A stretch of DNA of 56,035 bases from Alphaproteobacteria bacterium (GTDB lineage: Bacteria; Pseudomonadota; Alphaproteobacteria; Rhizobiales; Xanthobacteraceae): the NCBI GenBank assembly GCA_005885285.1, contig VAZG01000414.1:1-56035 (forward strand). The letters run 5' to 3'. Shown here piece by piece: positions 14,475 through 21,097 of the stretch. Below the pieces are notes generated by a model. That model was not told the DNA's origin and did not search any database. It saw only the letters and a list, made by a program, of their open reading frames with translations. The stretch's first letter is position 1; the number at the start of each line of letters is the position of its first letter. A program made the position numbers and the translations under genes.

Positions 14475-14552
14475 TGGGGTAATGCAGGCACCCCATCAGA
14501 CGCTCGCCGTCCAAGTTCTGCGCAATACTCGTTGTGTCGAGGAAATTGCGCA
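14475..14552 (+). promoter_or_regulatory. Candidate structured leader RNA, copy A (three hairpins, last one over SD/start codon)
   Basis: TGGGGT-AATGCAGGC-ACCCCA; GACG-CTCGC-CGTC; TGCGCAAT..CTCG..CGAG(GAA)..ATTGCGCA ending at the A of ATG; repeated at 17692. Confidence 0.7.
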
Positions 14553-16714
14553 TGGACCGAGCATTCCAATTGGTCCCTCCAGGTCCCCCAATCCAACGAA
14601 ATGCGCAGCTTCCGGCTGAGAGTGGGCGCGCCTCCGGACAAGCAGACGATCAAGTTCTGCTTCGAGTGGATTCGATCAACAAGCGATATGCTGATGAAGT
14701 GGTGCTCGCGGATGTCGCCTTCGACATCCAGGCAGGCGAGATCATCGGCATCATCGGTCCGAACGGCGCCGGCAAGACAACCCTGCTTGAGGTCCTCGCG
14801 GGCACTGTCCCTGCGGAATCGAGCGATGTTCAATGGCTCGGCAGACCGTTGCCGTCGTCGCGCCGACGAGAAGCCATCTTCTACCTGCCCGATGGCGTGC
14901 GGCCTTATCAGGACCAACTGGTTACTCGGGTTTTATCGTTCTTTGCCGATGTCTATCGAAGACCGGCCGACGAGGTTACGAGTACAATTGAAGCAGTAAG
15001 ATTGACGCCGGTTCTTAGCAAGCGCGTAAATTCGCTGTCGAAGGGCTACGGCCGAAGGCTGATGTTGGCGCTGGGACTGCTCGCGCCGCACCCGCTGCTT
15101 CTCATGGACGAACCGTTCGACGGTTTCGATCTTCGGCAGACCAGCGAGATCGTCGGCGTGCTGCGCAAAGAGGTCTCCAAGGGCCGGACGCTTGCCCTTG
15201 CAATCCATCAATTGCTGGATGCTGAGCGAGTCTGCGACCGCTTCATTCTTCTTGCCGACGGCCACGTTCGCGGTGTGGGAACGCTCAATGATCTTCGCGA
15301 AGGAACGGGGCTCACGAGTGGAAGCCTGGAGGATATCTTTCTTGCCCTACCTGAGACGTTCCAGATTCAAAAGGCTCGACTGCGGCCGCTGCTCGTCAAG
15401 GAGCTATGGGAGATCCTCGGTGGCCGGGCGCTGTGGACGATGCTGGTCCTGATGTGTCCTCTGGTCGGCTACAGCTTCTTCCAAGCTGTTTCGCTATATG
15501 GCGAGGCGAGCGCGGCCGGACTGCAATCGCCGGTCCTTGCCAGCAGTCTGTCGCCATTGGACGGCATTTTGGTGCCCACGCTTGGGGCTTCCTACGTTGC
15601 CGTCACGCTTTTATTTCCTTTTGTCGCAATTCGCGTGCTCGGCCAGGAAAAGGAATCGGGAGCACTGCGTCTTCTGGTCCAGATGCCTTATCGCTCCTCT
15701 ACCTTGATTGCAGCGAAGCTGGCGGCGGTTCTTGTAGCGTGGGTGTTTTCAAGCATCCCCGCATTTTCGGCGCTGGTTATCTGGCGACTGTTTGGTGGGC
15801 ACTTGTTTGCTCCGGAAACGCTGAACCTTCTTTTTGGACACCTGCTCTATGGTTTGCTTGTCGGAGCCATCGCATTGTTTGCTGCGTCGGTTTCCGAAAG
15901 TGCGGCGACGGCGGCTATCGTTACGCTTGCGTTCACGATCGGCTCGTGGGTGCTGGATTTTACCGTAGCCGGTCATCCCGGCCTTCTCGAATTGGTCGCA
16001 AATCTGTCGCTGACCCAGGTGTTGCATACCTTCGAGCAGGGTCAGTTGTCACTTGGTCTCGTCGCGGGAATTGGTACGGCCGCGTGCGGTTTCGCGGCGC
16101 TCGCGACCGTTTGGCTGCCGCCGGGCGTTCATGTCCGCAATAAGCTCGTTGGCTCAATAGCGTGCGTCCTTGCGGCGGCGATCGTTCTTGGCTTGGCGAC
16201 CCAGATCAGGTTCTCGATCGATGTCACCGAGGATCAGCGCAACTCGTTTCCAGTGGCCGACCAGCGCGTGCTCGCATCATTGGCGGGGCCGCTGGTCGTG
16301 ACGGTTCATCTGGCGCCGGAAGACCCCCGATACGCTGATCTGCAGCGCAACGTGCTCGCGAAACTGGAACGGGTGCTACCGAATATTTCCGTCGGTCTAG
16401 CGGGCGGACGGCAAAGTGTCGCGACCAATGCCGGCGACGACCGCTATGGCGAGGTCGAATACAATTACGACGGTCGATCAGACATCAGCCGCTCGACCAG
16501 TCCTCGCGAGATTCTCCCCCTGTTGTACGGTCTTGCGGACGTCAGTCGCCCTGCACCAGCCCCGGGTGGTGACTATCCGGGCTATCCGCTGGTTATCCGC
16601 GGAGAGGTCGCTCTTCTCTGGTTTTTTGGTGGGCTTCCGCTCTGTATCGCGCTCGGTTGGTGGTGGAGCCGCCGTCTCCCAATCGACTACCGTAAGCTCC
16701 AAAAGGAGGCATAG
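14552..16714 (+). CDS. ABC transporter: ATPase + permease + GldG-like auxiliary domain in one polypeptide
   Basis: IIGPNGAGKTTLL, LSKGYGRRLMLALGLL, LLLMDEPFDG; multi-TM segment; then IRFSIDVTEDQRNSFPVADQRVLASLAGPLVVTVHLAPEDPRY and a C-terminal TM. Confidence 0.85.
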   Translation: MDRAFQLVPPGPPIQRNAQLPAESGRASGQADDQVLLRVDSINKRYADEVVLADVAFDIQAGEIIGIIGPNGAGKTTLLEVLAGTVPAESSDVQWLGRPLPSSRRREAIFYLPDGVRPYQDQLVTRVLSFFADVYRRPADEVTSTIEAVRLTPVLSKRVNSLSKGYGRRLMLALGLLAPHPLLLMDEPFDGFDLRQTSEIVGVLRKEVSKGRTLALAIHQLLDAERVCDRFILLADGHVRGVGTLNDLREGTGLTSGSLEDIFLALPETFQIQKARLRPLLVKELWEILGGRALWTMLVLMCPLVGYSFFQAVSLYGEASAAGLQSPVLASSLSPLDGILVPTLGASYVAVTLLFPFVAIRVLGQEKESGALRLLVQMPYRSSTLIAAKLAAVLVAWVFSSIPAFSALVIWRLFGGHLFAPETLNLLFGHLLYGLLVGAIALFAASVSESAATAAIVTLAFTIGSWVLDFTVAGHPGLLELVANLSLTQVLHTFEQGQLSLGLVAGIGTAACGFAALATVWLPPGVHVRNKLVGSIACVLAAAIVLGLATQIRFSIDVTEDQRNSFPVADQRVLASLAGPLVVTVHLAPEDPRYADLQRNVLAKLERVLPNISVGLAGGRQSVATNAGDDRYGEVEYNYDGRSDISRSTSPREILPLLYGLADVSRPAPAPGGDYPGYPLVIRGEVALLWFFGGLPLCIALGWWWSRRLPIDYRKLQKEA

Positions 16715-16716
16715 CC

Positions 16717-17442
16717 ATGAACATCAGTAAAAGCATCAGAGCCGTTACTGTCTCGGCTCTTGGCTTCGCCCTGTTGGTACTACCCGCCGCTGCGCAGCAG
16801 CCGACTAGGATCGACCTTTCCAGCGAGACAGTTGGTGCGGATCCAAAGTCACTCGTAGCCGTCGTTGGCATTTGGCGGATCGAAAGCGAAGGCGGGAAAA
16901 ACGTCCTGGCCGTCGACGGCAGGCAATGGAAAGAGGGGCAATCCTCCGCCGGCATCGCCGACAAGGCAAGAGCGCTTTACGGCGAGCGCTATGCCGAGTT
17001 TCTCGATCGGGTTCAGGCCTATGCCTACTTCCCCTACACGGTCGCCAAAGACGTGCAGGATTTCCGAGGCGGTGAGATCACGGTGCGGTTCGAGGGATTG
17101 TCGGGCCGCATCGATCAGGGAGCCGGCATATTGTTCAATCTGAAGCCGAATGGCGACTACCTGGCACTTCGCGCGAACTGTCTCGAGAACAATCTTGTTC
17201 TCTGGAAATTCGAAAAAGGCAAAAGATCATCGGTAGCCTGGGTTCGGAATGTGCCGACCGCCAGCAAGCGATGGCATGACCTCAAAGTCCGGATAGCCGG
17301 CACCAAGGTTGAAGGTTATCTCGATGGCAAGCTCTATCTGGAGCACACACTTTCCGATGCCGTGTCCGGTCGGATTGGTCTTTGGTCAAAAGCGGACAGC
17401 TACATGCGCTTCTCTGACTACACGGCGACTTCAGCCAATTGA
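16717..17442 (+). CDS. Exported LamG/concanavalin-like (DUF1080-type) protein
   Basis: Signal peptide; VRFEGLSGRIDQGAGILFNLKPNGDYLALRANCLENNLVLWKFEKGKRSS...WHDLKVRIAGTKVEGYLDGKLYLEHTL. Confidence 0.72.
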   Translation: MNISKSIRAVTVSALGFALLVLPAAAQQPTRIDLSSETVGADPKSLVAVVGIWRIESEGGKNVLAVDGRQWKEGQSSAGIADKARALYGERYAEFLDRVQAYAYFPYTVAKDVQDFRGGEITVRFEGLSGRIDQGAGILFNLKPNGDYLALRANCLENNLVLWKFEKGKRSSVAWVRNVPTASKRWHDLKVRIAGTKVEGYLDGKLYLEHTLSDAVSGRIGLWSKADSYMRFSDYTATSAN

Positions 17443-17691
17443 CCTGCACAGCACTGGGTGAACGGGGAACCAGTCAAATCCAGCCGATGAACTAACGCCC
17501 GTACACCGCATAGCCGTGCCGGTTTCACCCTGACAAGGCGACTGGCTTTGTTCCCTCGACGATAAGGCCTTCGGCAGAGCAAGCCGCTCTAAATCCGCGG
17601 TTCAATCCAAAATCCGCACGAATTTGTGACTGCTGTACCGGACGATTTGTTCCCTCTTGCGTCCGAACCGGGGACTCACTAAAAACCCTGC

Positions 17692-17769
17692 CGGGGAAAT
17701 GCAGACTCCCCGTTAGACGGTTCGCGTCCAAGCTCTGCGCGTCACTCGATTAGTCGAGGAGATTGCGCA
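17692..17769 (+). promoter_or_regulatory. Candidate structured leader RNA, copy B
   Basis: CGGGGA-AATGCAGAC-TCCCCG; GACG-GTTCG-CGTC; TGCGC..CTCGA-TTAG-TCGAG(GAG)..GCGCA ending at the A of ATG. Confidence 0.7.
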
Positions 17770-18575
17770 TGGACGATCGTAACCGCTCGATTCCCGCAGA
17801 TGTCCTTTATGCACGGCTTGGCTCGGAAGCGGCGCCGATCATTGTCGACGTGCGACCGGACGCCGACTTTGTTGGCGCCGAGAGCCTTGTGACCGCAGCG
17901 TTTCATCGCTCGCCGGACGCCGTCGAACAGTGGCGATCGGAGTTGCCGAGCGGACGCCAGGTCGTCACCTACTGCAGCCACGGACGCGACGTCAGCCAAG
18001 GCGTCGCCGCCGCATTGCGCCTGATGGGAGTGGAGGCGAATTTTCTGGAAGGCGGCCTCGGCAATTGGATCGAGCAGGGACTGCCGACGCGCCGCAACAT
18101 CGGCGCCAGTCCCAGCAAGTGGGTGACGCGAGAACGCCCGAAGATCGACCGTATTGCCTGCCCCTGGCTGATCCGTCGCTTCATCGATCCCCGTGCAGAA
18201 TTCGTCTACGTCCCGAAGGATCAGGTTGTTGCCGTTGCGCTGCGGACGGGTGGGACGCCCTACGACATCGACGGGGTGGAATTCACGCACGAGGGTGAGC
18301 GTTGCTCGTTCGATACCATCCTGCGCATCTACGACATTAATGACGCGGCGCTCGATCATCTGGCGACGATCGTCCGGGGCGCCGATACCTCGCGGCACGA
18401 TCTAAGCCCTCAATGCGGTGGCCTGTTTGCGATCTCCCTCGGCCTCTCGGCGAACTTCCCGGATGACCATGAAATGCTCAAGCACGGCATGGTCATGTAC
18501 GACGCGCTCTACACGTGGTGCCGCTCTCTGCAAGCCGAGACGCATAATTGGCCCGCGCGCGCCGTCGGAGCTTGA
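17769..18575 (+). CDS. chrB: Rhodanese domain fused to ChrB-like chromate resistance domain
   Basis: IIVDVRPDADF...VVTYCSHGRDVSQGVAAALRLMG rhodanese, then ERPKIDRIACPWLIRRFIDPRAEFVYVPKDQV...ISLGLSANFPDDHEMLKHGMVMYDALYTWCR. Confidence 0.88.
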   Translation: MDDRNRSIPADVLYARLGSEAAPIIVDVRPDADFVGAESLVTAAFHRSPDAVEQWRSELPSGRQVVTYCSHGRDVSQGVAAALRLMGVEANFLEGGLGNWIEQGLPTRRNIGASPSKWVTRERPKIDRIACPWLIRRFIDPRAEFVYVPKDQVVAVALRTGGTPYDIDGVEFTHEGERCSFDTILRIYDINDAALDHLATIVRGADTSRHDLSPQCGGLFAISLGLSANFPDDHEMLKHGMVMYDALYTWCRSLQAETHNWPARAVGA

Positions 18576-18736: not shown

Positions 18737-19624
18737 ATGCGCAACTTGTATGGAATTGCGGCTTCGATGTTCCTGGCCGTGTTGGTCACATCCGCGCGTG
18801 CACAAGAAGTCGACTGGCAGAAGGTCGACGACGCATTCGGCAGAAAGCCGGCCGTGTCGGGTGATGTGCACCGCTATGGCTTTCCGCGTACCGATCTCAC
18901 CGTGACGCTCGACGGCGTCACCATCAAGCCGGCGCTGGCACTTGGCGGCTGGCTTGCGTTCAAGCCGATGCACGGGGAAGCCATGGTCATGGGCGACCTC
19001 GTGCTGCTCGAGACCGAGGTCAATCCCGTGATGCTCAAGCTGATCGAAAGCGGTCTTGAGGTCACCGCGGTCCACAATCACCTGCTGCGGGCGAACCCCG
19101 AGACCTTCTACCTGCATGTTGGCGGCCATGGCGACGCGGCGAAGATGGCAGCCGCGATTCGCGAGGCTCTCGCGGCAAGCAAGACGCCACCAGCGACGCC
19201 GGCCGCAACCCCACCACCGGCGGTCGATCTCGACACGGCGCAGCTCGATCAGATCATCGGGGTAAAGGGACAGCCGAACGGCGGAGTGTATCAATTTGCC
19301 GTGCCGCGCCGAGATCCGGTGACGGAAAATGGCATGCCGCTCAGTCCGGCCGGCCCCTTAGGCCTGGCAAACGGTTTCGGATTCCAGCCGACCGGCAACG
19401 GCAAGGCCGCGATTACCGGCGACCTGGTTTTGACCGGCGACGAAGTCAATCCGGTGGTCAAGGCGTTGCGGGAGAACGGAATAGACGTGACTGCGATCCA
19501 CAGCCACATGCTGGATGAGCAGCCGCGGCTGTTCTTCCTGCATTTCTGGGCCAACGACGACGCACTCAAACTCGCCAGGGGAATGCGCGCCGCGCTCGAC
19601 AAGACGGCAACCGCCAAGAGCTAA
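18737..19624 (+). CDS. Exported protein with two tandem DUF1259 (LppY/LpqO-like) domains
   Basis: Two homologous halves: VTAVHNHLLRANPETFYLHVGGHGDAAKMAAAIREAL and VTAIHSHMLDEQPRLFFLHFWANDDALKLARGMRAAL. Confidence 0.85.
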   Translation: MRNLYGIAASMFLAVLVTSARAQEVDWQKVDDAFGRKPAVSGDVHRYGFPRTDLTVTLDGVTIKPALALGGWLAFKPMHGEAMVMGDLVLLETEVNPVMLKLIESGLEVTAVHNHLLRANPETFYLHVGGHGDAAKMAAAIREALAASKTPPATPAATPPPAVDLDTAQLDQIIGVKGQPNGGVYQFAVPRRDPVTENGMPLSPAGPLGLANGFGFQPTGNGKAAITGDLVLTGDEVNPVVKALRENGIDVTAIHSHMLDEQPRLFFLHFWANDDALKLARGMRAALDKTATAKS

Positions 19625-19851: not shown

Positions 19852-19927
19852 AACGGCGGCCTTCTCCAATCATCGGCTCTGCGGCGGAGATTTTCTATAG
19901 ACTGTATTTTGATTTGTGGGGCACGAC

Positions 19928-21097
19928 ATGACGGAATCGACGGCACAAGGGCAGATTGGCGAGTTGGTACGTTACTTCCTGCGGCTCGGGTTTTTGGGCT
20001 TCGGCGGACCGGTGGCGCTGGTCGGCCAGATGGAGCGCGAACTCGTCGATGGCAAGAAGTGGCTCACCAAGGAGCAGATGCGCGAAGCCATCGCCATCTG
20101 CCAGTCGCTTCCCGGACCGCTTGCGATCCAGGTCGGCGTCTACGTCTCCTATCTGCGCTGCGGATTTTGGGGCGCCTGGGCCGGCGGGTGGGCTTTCATC
20201 CTTCCAAACTTCGTCATCGTGGCTGCGCTGGGCGCGCTCTACGTCTATCTCGGCGATCTGCAGCCGGTAACCGCTATCTTTTACGGCGTCAGCCCGGCTG
20301 TGATCGCGCTGATCCTGCATTCCTGCTATCGGCTGGCCAAGCTTGGCATGGAAGACGCCTTGCAATGGGCGATCGCCGCAGTCTGCCTCGTGGTCACCGT
20401 CGTTCTCCAGGCCGAAGTGGCGTTGCTGTTCATCGGCGCCGGCATCGTCGGCATTCTTTATTACGGCAGCCTGTTCAAGCGAACGCCGCCGGCGCTTTCG
20501 ATTACCATAGCGCCGGTTCTCGCACAGCTCGCGCCAAGTGCCTCAAGCTCGATCCTCGGCAAGCTCCTGCTGTTTTTCCTCAAGGCCGGCTCGCTCACCT
20601 TTGGGAGCGGTCTCGTCATCGTGCCGTTCCTCGAACAGGGGCTAGTCCAACAGTTCGGCTGGCTGGATCAGCGTCAGTTCCTGATCGCTGTCGCTATCGG
20701 CATGATCAGCCCGGGACCGGTCGTGATCACCGCAACCTTTGTCGGGTATCTCGTCGCCGGTTTTTGGGGCTCGCTGGTCTCGACCATCGGCATTTTCCTG
20801 CCCTCGTTCCTTCTGGTGCTGATCGCGGCGCCATTGCTGGCGCGCCATCGTGGCGATCCCAATGTGCAGGGATTTGTCAAGGGTGCCTATGCGGCGGCGA
20901 TCGGAACGATCCTGGGCGCCTGCATCCTGCTTGGGCGCATCGCGATCGGCGATTGGCTTACGGCGCTGATCGGGCTCGTCTCGCTCGCGGTGTTGTTTCG
21001 CTGGAAAGTCAGCAACCCGCTCCTGATCGCCGCGACCGCGGCCGTGGGCCTCATTGCATATCCGCTGCTGCAACCGACCTGGGTGATGGTCCACTAG
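19928..21097 (+). CDS. chrA: Chromate transporter
   Basis: LGFLGFGGPVALVGQMERELVDGKKWLTKEQMREAIAICQSLPGPLAIQVGVYVSYLR...LTFGSGLVIVPFLEQGLV. Confidence 0.94.
   Translation: MTESTAQGQIGELVRYFLRLGFLGFGGPVALVGQMERELVDGKKWLTKEQMREAIAICQSLPGPLAIQVGVYVSYLRCGFWGAWAGGWAFILPNFVIVAALGALYVYLGDLQPVTAIFYGVSPAVIALILHSCYRLAKLGMEDALQWAIAAVCLVVTVVLQAEVALLFIGAGIVGILYYGSLFKRTPPALSITIAPVLAQLAPSASSSILGKLLLFFLKAGSLTFGSGLVIVPFLEQGLVQQFGWLDQRQFLIAVAIGMISPGPVVITATFVGYLVAGFWGSLVSTIGIFLPSFLLVLIAAPLLARHRGDPNVQGFVKGAYAAAIGTILGACILLGRIAIGDWLTALIGLVSLAVLFRWKVSNPLLIAATAAVGLIAYPLLQPTWVMVH

Follow-up and report, generated by a model that had tools for sequence, protein, structure and literature searches.

Two chrB-b RNA leaders upstream of an ABC transporter gene and a chrB operon form a putative translational ON-switch

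Results

Two chrB-b leaders at one locus

The window analyzed here is a stretch of 56,035 nucleotides (contig VAZG01000414.1, positions 1 to 56,035) from an alphaproteobacterium of the Xanthobacteraceae (assembly GCA_005885285.1). It carries two similar leaders that match the Rfam RNA family chrB-b (RF03086), and these leaders and all window features described below lie on the forward (+) strand. Copy 1 runs into gene 1 (14552..16714), an ABC ATPase fused to an ABC-2 permease (720 aa; PF00005, 2.4e-21; PF12679, 2e-8). Gene 2 (16717..17442) encodes a small laminin-G/concanavalin-like secreted protein with a weak match to PF02210, and its spacing from gene 1 suggests a shared transcription unit. 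Such secreted proteins, without clear Pfam assignment, recur beside chrB-b elements, for instance at L001:773-1471. Copy 2 runs into gene 3 (17769..18575), a rhodanese-ChrB_C protein of 268 aa (PF09828, 2.4e-50; PF00581, 2.6e-9), which is followed by genes for a DUF1259 protein (gene 4, 18737..19624; PF07485, 5.9e-91) and for the chromate transporter ChrA (gene 5, 19916..21097; PF02417, 6.5e-82).

Direct alignment of 14481-14557 with 17698-17774 gave an ungapped identity of 61/77, exactly the value in an initial annotation made from the sequence, whereas shuffling the two surrounding kilobases 20 times yielded best 77-nt matches of 36-41. The homologous block begins six bases earlier than had been noted, at 14475 and 17692, and from there, with hairpin 1 included, 65/83 positions are identical. 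The resemblance is not a gene duplication, as the annotation had argued, because the ABC fusion and rhodanese-ChrB_C genes are unrelated past ATGGAC. The candidate "chrB" RNA motif named in that annotation proved to be the right family: when all of Rfam was searched with cmscan, exactly two matches at the gathering threshold were found in the window, both to RF03086 (copy 1, 14475..14521, 53.9 bits, E 2.3e-8; copy 2, 17692..17738, 57.6 bits, E 2.8e-9). Both lie far above the gathering score of 36.5 bits and cover the full model, positions 1-49. Against the related family chrB-a (RF03078), copy 1 scored only 19.4 bits, below the gathering cut-off of 43.9, and no chrB-a match was found in the window's own genome.

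The cmscan alignments and covariation revealed the chrB-b consensus features in both copies, namely two hairpins and a conserved CCAAGCUCUGC tail. Hairpin 1 (14475-14480/14490-14495 and 17692-17697/17707-17712) has the compensated stem described in the initial annotation, and hairpin 2 (14499-14502/14508-14511 and 17716-17719/17725-17728) has the stem GACG/CGTC. The gene context fits as well, with copy 2 before rhodanese-ChrB_C, DUF1259 and ChrA, and homologues before ChrB, ChrA, TauE and others; the RNA stands at the head of both the ABC gene and the chrB operon, and in other genomes it precedes chr-type genes.

Compensatory change in the hairpins and a pseudoknot

We collected 148 distinct elements and aligned them in a structure-aware manner to a model that contained only hairpins 1 and 2, leaving the pseudoknot unmodelled. 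Only elements with equal loop lengths went into the seed, since hairpin 1 came out of register when MAFFT aligned mixed loop lengths. A pairing overlooked in the initial annotation joins the conserved hairpin-1 loop to the tail: GCAGG at 14484..14488 with UCUGC at 14517-14521 in copy 1, and GCAGA at 17701..17705 with UCUGC at 17734-17738 in copy 2. Paired cells amounted to 94.1% for hairpin 1, 92.9% for hairpin 2 and 97.1% for this pseudoknot. Taken together, the three helices had 230 double-changed cells versus 66 in shuffles, and the signal was lost on sliding by 1-3 columns. The pseudoknot alone had 74 double changes versus 26 in shuffles and a covariation score of 0.352 versus 0.135. Its pairs are diverse (GCAGA/UCUGC, GCAGC/GCUGC, GCAGU/ACUGC, GCGGU/ACCGC, GCGAU/AUCGC, GCAAC/GUUGC and GCCGU/ACGGC), and on the sense strand 35 cells are G-U compared with 16 non-pairs of every kind. 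Both hairpins and the loop-tail pseudoknot are thus supported by compensatory change. This strong signal among homologues, whose absence the initial annotation had named as a refutation, together with RF03086 membership supports its view of a cis-regulatory RNA.

A Shine-Dalgarno hairpin beyond the Rfam model

Directly 3' of the tail, outside the Rfam chrB-b model, lies a third hairpin that reaches the AUG and holds the Shine-Dalgarno sequence. In copy 1 (14519..14552), UGCGCAAU at 14519-14526 pairs with AUUGCGCA at 14545-14552 in the minimum-free-energy (MFE) fold, and an inner stem joins CUCG 14528-14531 to CGAG 14538-14541, with the Shine-Dalgarno at ~14539-14543. In copy 2 (17736..17769), 17736-17743 pairs with 17761-17769 and, in the inner stem, 17745-17749 with 17754-17758, with the Shine-Dalgarno at ~17756-17761. 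The CTCG/CGAG hairpin placed on the Shine-Dalgarno by the initial annotation is therefore present in both leaders; what had been missed is its extension by UGCGC.../...GCGCA up to the AUG. The arms covary in homologues: their pairing energy was -11.7 kcal/mol versus -8.4 when permuted, and the best of 5000 permutations reached -9.3, or -10.4 within gene families. In most elements the 5' arm starts 2-3 nt inside the tail, so that this hairpin competes with the end of the pseudoknot. Stem-versus-shuffle statistics on a single leader were seldom significant alone, and the claims for this hairpin and for the pairing described next are carried by the permutation tests.

The first codons are complementary to hairpin 2

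The start codon and the codons after it show complementarity to hairpin 2, chiefly to the 3' half together with CCA. Because ATGGAC pairs with hairpin 2, a point the initial annotation had overlooked, it belongs to the RNA itself. In copy 1 the 5' strand of this helix, which we call the lock (14502..14513), consists of GCUCG 14502-14506 and GUCCA 14509-14513. Its MFE partner is 14553-14562, within a 3' strand (14552..14562) formed by the AUG at 14552 and codons 2-4 (UGGAC CGAGC), and the duplex energy is -14.7 kcal/mol; covariation also supports this strand. In copy 2 the 5' strand comprises all of hairpin 2 plus CCA (17716..17730), with the MFE partner 17770-17788, and the 3' strand spans the start codon and codons 2-7 (17769..17788), again as judged by MFE fold and duplex energy.

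Across the homologues, mean complementarity to hairpin 2 was 15.1 at the start versus 9.4-11.4 in 14 downstream windows, and the corresponding duplex energies were -12.0 versus -6.1 to -9.9 kcal/mol. When lock partners were permuted, the own value of -11.9 was never reached; the best of 5000 permutations was -10.5 overall and -11.2 within gene families. Compensation is gene-specific, as in GGUAUCCA/UGGAUACC (L023), GUUUCCA/UGGAAAC (L033), AGGUGUCCA/UGGACACCU (L028), ACCGCGUUCA/UGGACGCGGU (L078), GUGAUCCC/GGGAUCAC in a shifted register (L125) and GGGCCCAAG/CUUGGGCUU (L122). A two-base codon table (Asp GAC/GAT versus hairpin-2 G/A) was dropped as evidence because it was confounded with gene family; we therefore relied on within-family, thinned and holdout tests. 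When the set was thinned to ~39 divergent pairs, p did not exceed 0.0045 in any of 20 thinnings. The holdout set, 42 unique elements belonging to two other families, gave p = 0.0018, with a strong lock in one of them (f62, down to -25.2 kcal/mol). The AUG was mostly paired in 82% of elements versus 56% of control starts.

Predicted folds of the two leaders

For both 106-nt leaders (14475-14580 and 17692-17797) the MFE fold is a locked state, in which hairpin 1 is followed by a long helix enclosing the Shine-Dalgarno hairpin. The helix is GUCCA/UGGAC prolonged by GCUCG/CGAGC in copy 1, and CGUCCA/UGGACG plus CG/CG and CGGUU/AACCG in copy 2. The energies are -37.7 kcal/mol for copy 1 and -41.7 for copy 2 (z -2.2 and -2.3). 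Imposing hairpins 1 and 2 while keeping the pseudoknot bases unpaired raises them by ~8 and ~13 kcal/mol; with the pseudoknot credited with ~-5, holding the alternative, pseudoknotted state costs ~3-8 kcal/mol. We did not detect a terminator-like site (a hairpin followed by a U-run) within 14475-14580 or 17692-17797, which favors translational control.

Distribution and regulon

The chrB-b RNA was found in 119/149 sampled genomes of the same genus, in 43/150 of the same family, in 34/386 of the class and in 21/399 of the phylum, with few matches outside the class. Gene content, and named records that contain the same 16-mer core, make Bradyrhizobium the most likely genus. The window's own genome has two further copies on another contig (G000:C247:13573-13623 (+) and 16406-16453 (-); L004 and L001). 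These are separated by 2.8 kb and point towards one another; one precedes a TauE/SafE gene, the other a laminin-G-like gene, and an MFS gene lies in between. The highest number seen was eight matches, in another genome of the genus (G1084). Some elements occur in tandem ~90-200 nt apart (L105:1499-1552/1642-1690; L096:4412-4465/4172-4221; L108:2525-2578/2283-2331). In these, a start-like TTGGCGAAATG comes after the first element and pairs with that element's hairpin 2 (11 bp in L108); it may mark a short leader open reading frame. The pseudoknot of the second element in L105 is ACAAC/GUUGU.

The elements sit mostly 17-48 nt before gene starts in many unrelated families. Clustering the first genes of ~140 elements, with a small number of starts still assigned wrongly (e.g. 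L079_a), gave ChrB 37, TauE/SafE 27, ChrA 19, Cj0069/DUF6815 12, MFS 11, laminin-G-like 6, ornithine-cyclodeaminase (OCD)-like 4, MATE 4, beta-propeller 2 and ABC fusion 1. The same families recur as neighbors in shuffled order, and several members (TauE, MATE, OCD-like) are not chromate-specific. The window's ABC fusion gene has a relative directly after a Cj0069-family gene controlled by chrB-b (L101:2678-3208), so the ABC gene is part of a chr neighborhood elsewhere too. In the own-family sample, the ChrB_C domain was present in 37/43 RNA-positive versus 47/107 RNA-negative genomes. The RNA nevertheless occurs in complete genomes without ChrB_C: nine genomes of family f14, five of which exceed the gathering score, as well as G863 (48.0 bits), G320 (53.7 bits) and G702. 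ChrB is thus not an obligate partner, although the association is real.

Discussion

As far as sequence and statistics reach, they establish family membership, the hairpins, the pseudoknot, the Shine-Dalgarno hairpin and, in most elements, lock complementarity. On this basis we consider it probable that the two chrB-b leaders each work in cis as a translational ON-switch that is locked by default and opened by a signal. In the locked state hairpin 1 would form alone, and the 3' side of hairpin 2 would pair with the first codons (CGUCCA with UGGACG), the helix running on into the hairpin-2 loop and 5' strand. Inside this helix the tail would pair with the bases up to the AUG (UGCGC...GCGCA) and bury the Shine-Dalgarno and the start codon. 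The alternative state would pair the tail with the hairpin-1 loop (GCAGR/UCUGC) and close hairpin 2 on itself; the lock helix would thereby be lost, as would the base of the Shine-Dalgarno hairpin, and ribosomes could start. A small ligand, an ion or another factor that stabilizes this state would turn on ABC export and ChrB/ChrA synthesis together. Both folds are backed by covariation and, as computed, compatible in energy. We infer that they interconvert in the cell, that the signal acts in the ON direction and that there may be a ligand. Chromate is a plausible signal, since ChrB and ChrA predominate among the controlled genes and ChrB is a known regulator that responds to chromate (PMC3817168). 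A different toxic anion, or a metabolite formed under stress, would also suit the wide range of transporters.

Several observations weigh against such a switch. The lock is a majority feature and not universal: duplexes of -12 kcal/mol or below occur in 58% of elements versus 22% of control windows, the lock is weak in holdout family f130, and the 63 elements whose starts lack AUGGA show no mean excess (-9.65 versus -9.68). The permutation tests leave some shared ancestry. The pseudoknot and the Shine-Dalgarno hairpin overlap by just 2-3 nt and might therefore partly coexist. The energies were computed on isolated strands and take no account of pseudoknot thermodynamics.

The locked fold is the MFE structure in both copies, which would also be expected of a static damper, a structure that senses nothing and sets a low, perhaps temperature-sensitive, rate of initiation. 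Strong selection on the pseudoknot and on the invariant CAAG linker, which are unpaired or absent in the locked fold, speaks against a pure damper because it would need neither, and we consider this explanation unlikely. Control might instead reside in a protein, most obviously ChrB, that binds the leader and represses translation autogenously, with no sensor in the RNA. ChrB is the commonest first gene and is enriched in RNA-positive genomes, but the RNA is present in the complete genomes without ChrB_C listed above, and ChrB has been described as a chromate-responsive transcription regulator (PMC3817168). We regard this explanation as quite unlikely, although a different RNA-binding protein may act on the leader.

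Hairpins are inverted repeats at the DNA level and could serve as an operator for a transcription factor. The crossing loop-tail pairing, the pairing with the coding region, the fixed position relative to the Shine-Dalgarno and start codon and the G-U pairs tolerated on the sense strand of the pseudoknot all fit RNA instead, which makes an operator very improbable. The presence of two copies within 3.3 kb, and of a further pair elsewhere in this genome, might suggest chance similarity or a mobile repeat without function. We rejected this reading, whose probability we regard as negligible, given the RF03086 matches, positions mostly just before the starts of many unrelated families, and compensatory change. 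A translational ON-switch remains the explanation we favor.

If so, the 3' part missing from the Rfam model defines the construct to be used, a leader of ~106 nt with at least codons 1-7, as the Rfam consensus alone would lack the switch. Both the range of controlled genes and the existence of RNA-positive genomes without ChrB narrow what the RNA can sense.

Comparison with known systems

The leaders match the full 49-position chrB-b model in hairpins, tail and gene association. The model stops at the tail. In the window as well as in homologues, the Shine-Dalgarno hairpin and lock come after that point on the 3' side, and neither this wider expression platform nor the lock in the coding region is part of the Rfam model. 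The chrB motif was reportedly described in a 2017 paper in Nucleic Acids Research. Our literature search, which that presumed description fell outside, found no paper naming RF03086, RF03078 or chrB-b, and as far as we found, chrB-b is a known family to which neither a mechanism nor a ligand has been assigned. CaCoFold detected covarying pairs that reveal a new pseudoknot helix in chrB RNA (PMC7657543), presumably the one counted here. The passage on it gives no mechanism, Shine-Dalgarno hairpin or coding-region pairing.

chrB-a resembles chrB-b in hairpin 1, in a loop and tail capable of forming the pseudoknot and in a Shine-Dalgarno hairpin before the AUG; since the chrB-a model already contains that hairpin, the two families share one plan. 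In 24 chrB-a elements (L145-L168) the starts are complementary to hairpin 2 (-13.5 versus -12.3 permuted, p 0.002), but they pair with its other side, mainly the 5' side and loop. Intermediate elements (L120:2500-2544, L121:1584-1629, L106:1280-1323 and L090:1411-1456) have a short hairpin 2 (AGGC..GCC) and pseudoknots such as GCGAU/AUCGC, and chrB-a and chrB-b, which are not clanned in Rfam, therefore probably form one clan. More tentatively, and with considerable doubt, both may be a single riboswitch class that directly senses an oxyanion (e.g. chromate) or a stress metabolite, releases the helix between hairpin 2 and the first codons and coordinates at least ten gene families in Alphaproteobacteria without ChrB.

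In translational riboswitches of the pseudoknotted type, a small domain with a pseudoknot immediately precedes a sequestered Shine-Dalgarno, ahead of exporters of a toxic compound, and the chrB-b leaders have the same layout. They differ in that the chrB-b ligand is hypothetical and in that the predicted sequestering helix draws on the gene's own first codons, with codon choice tracking hairpin 2, an unusual constraint at the coding level.

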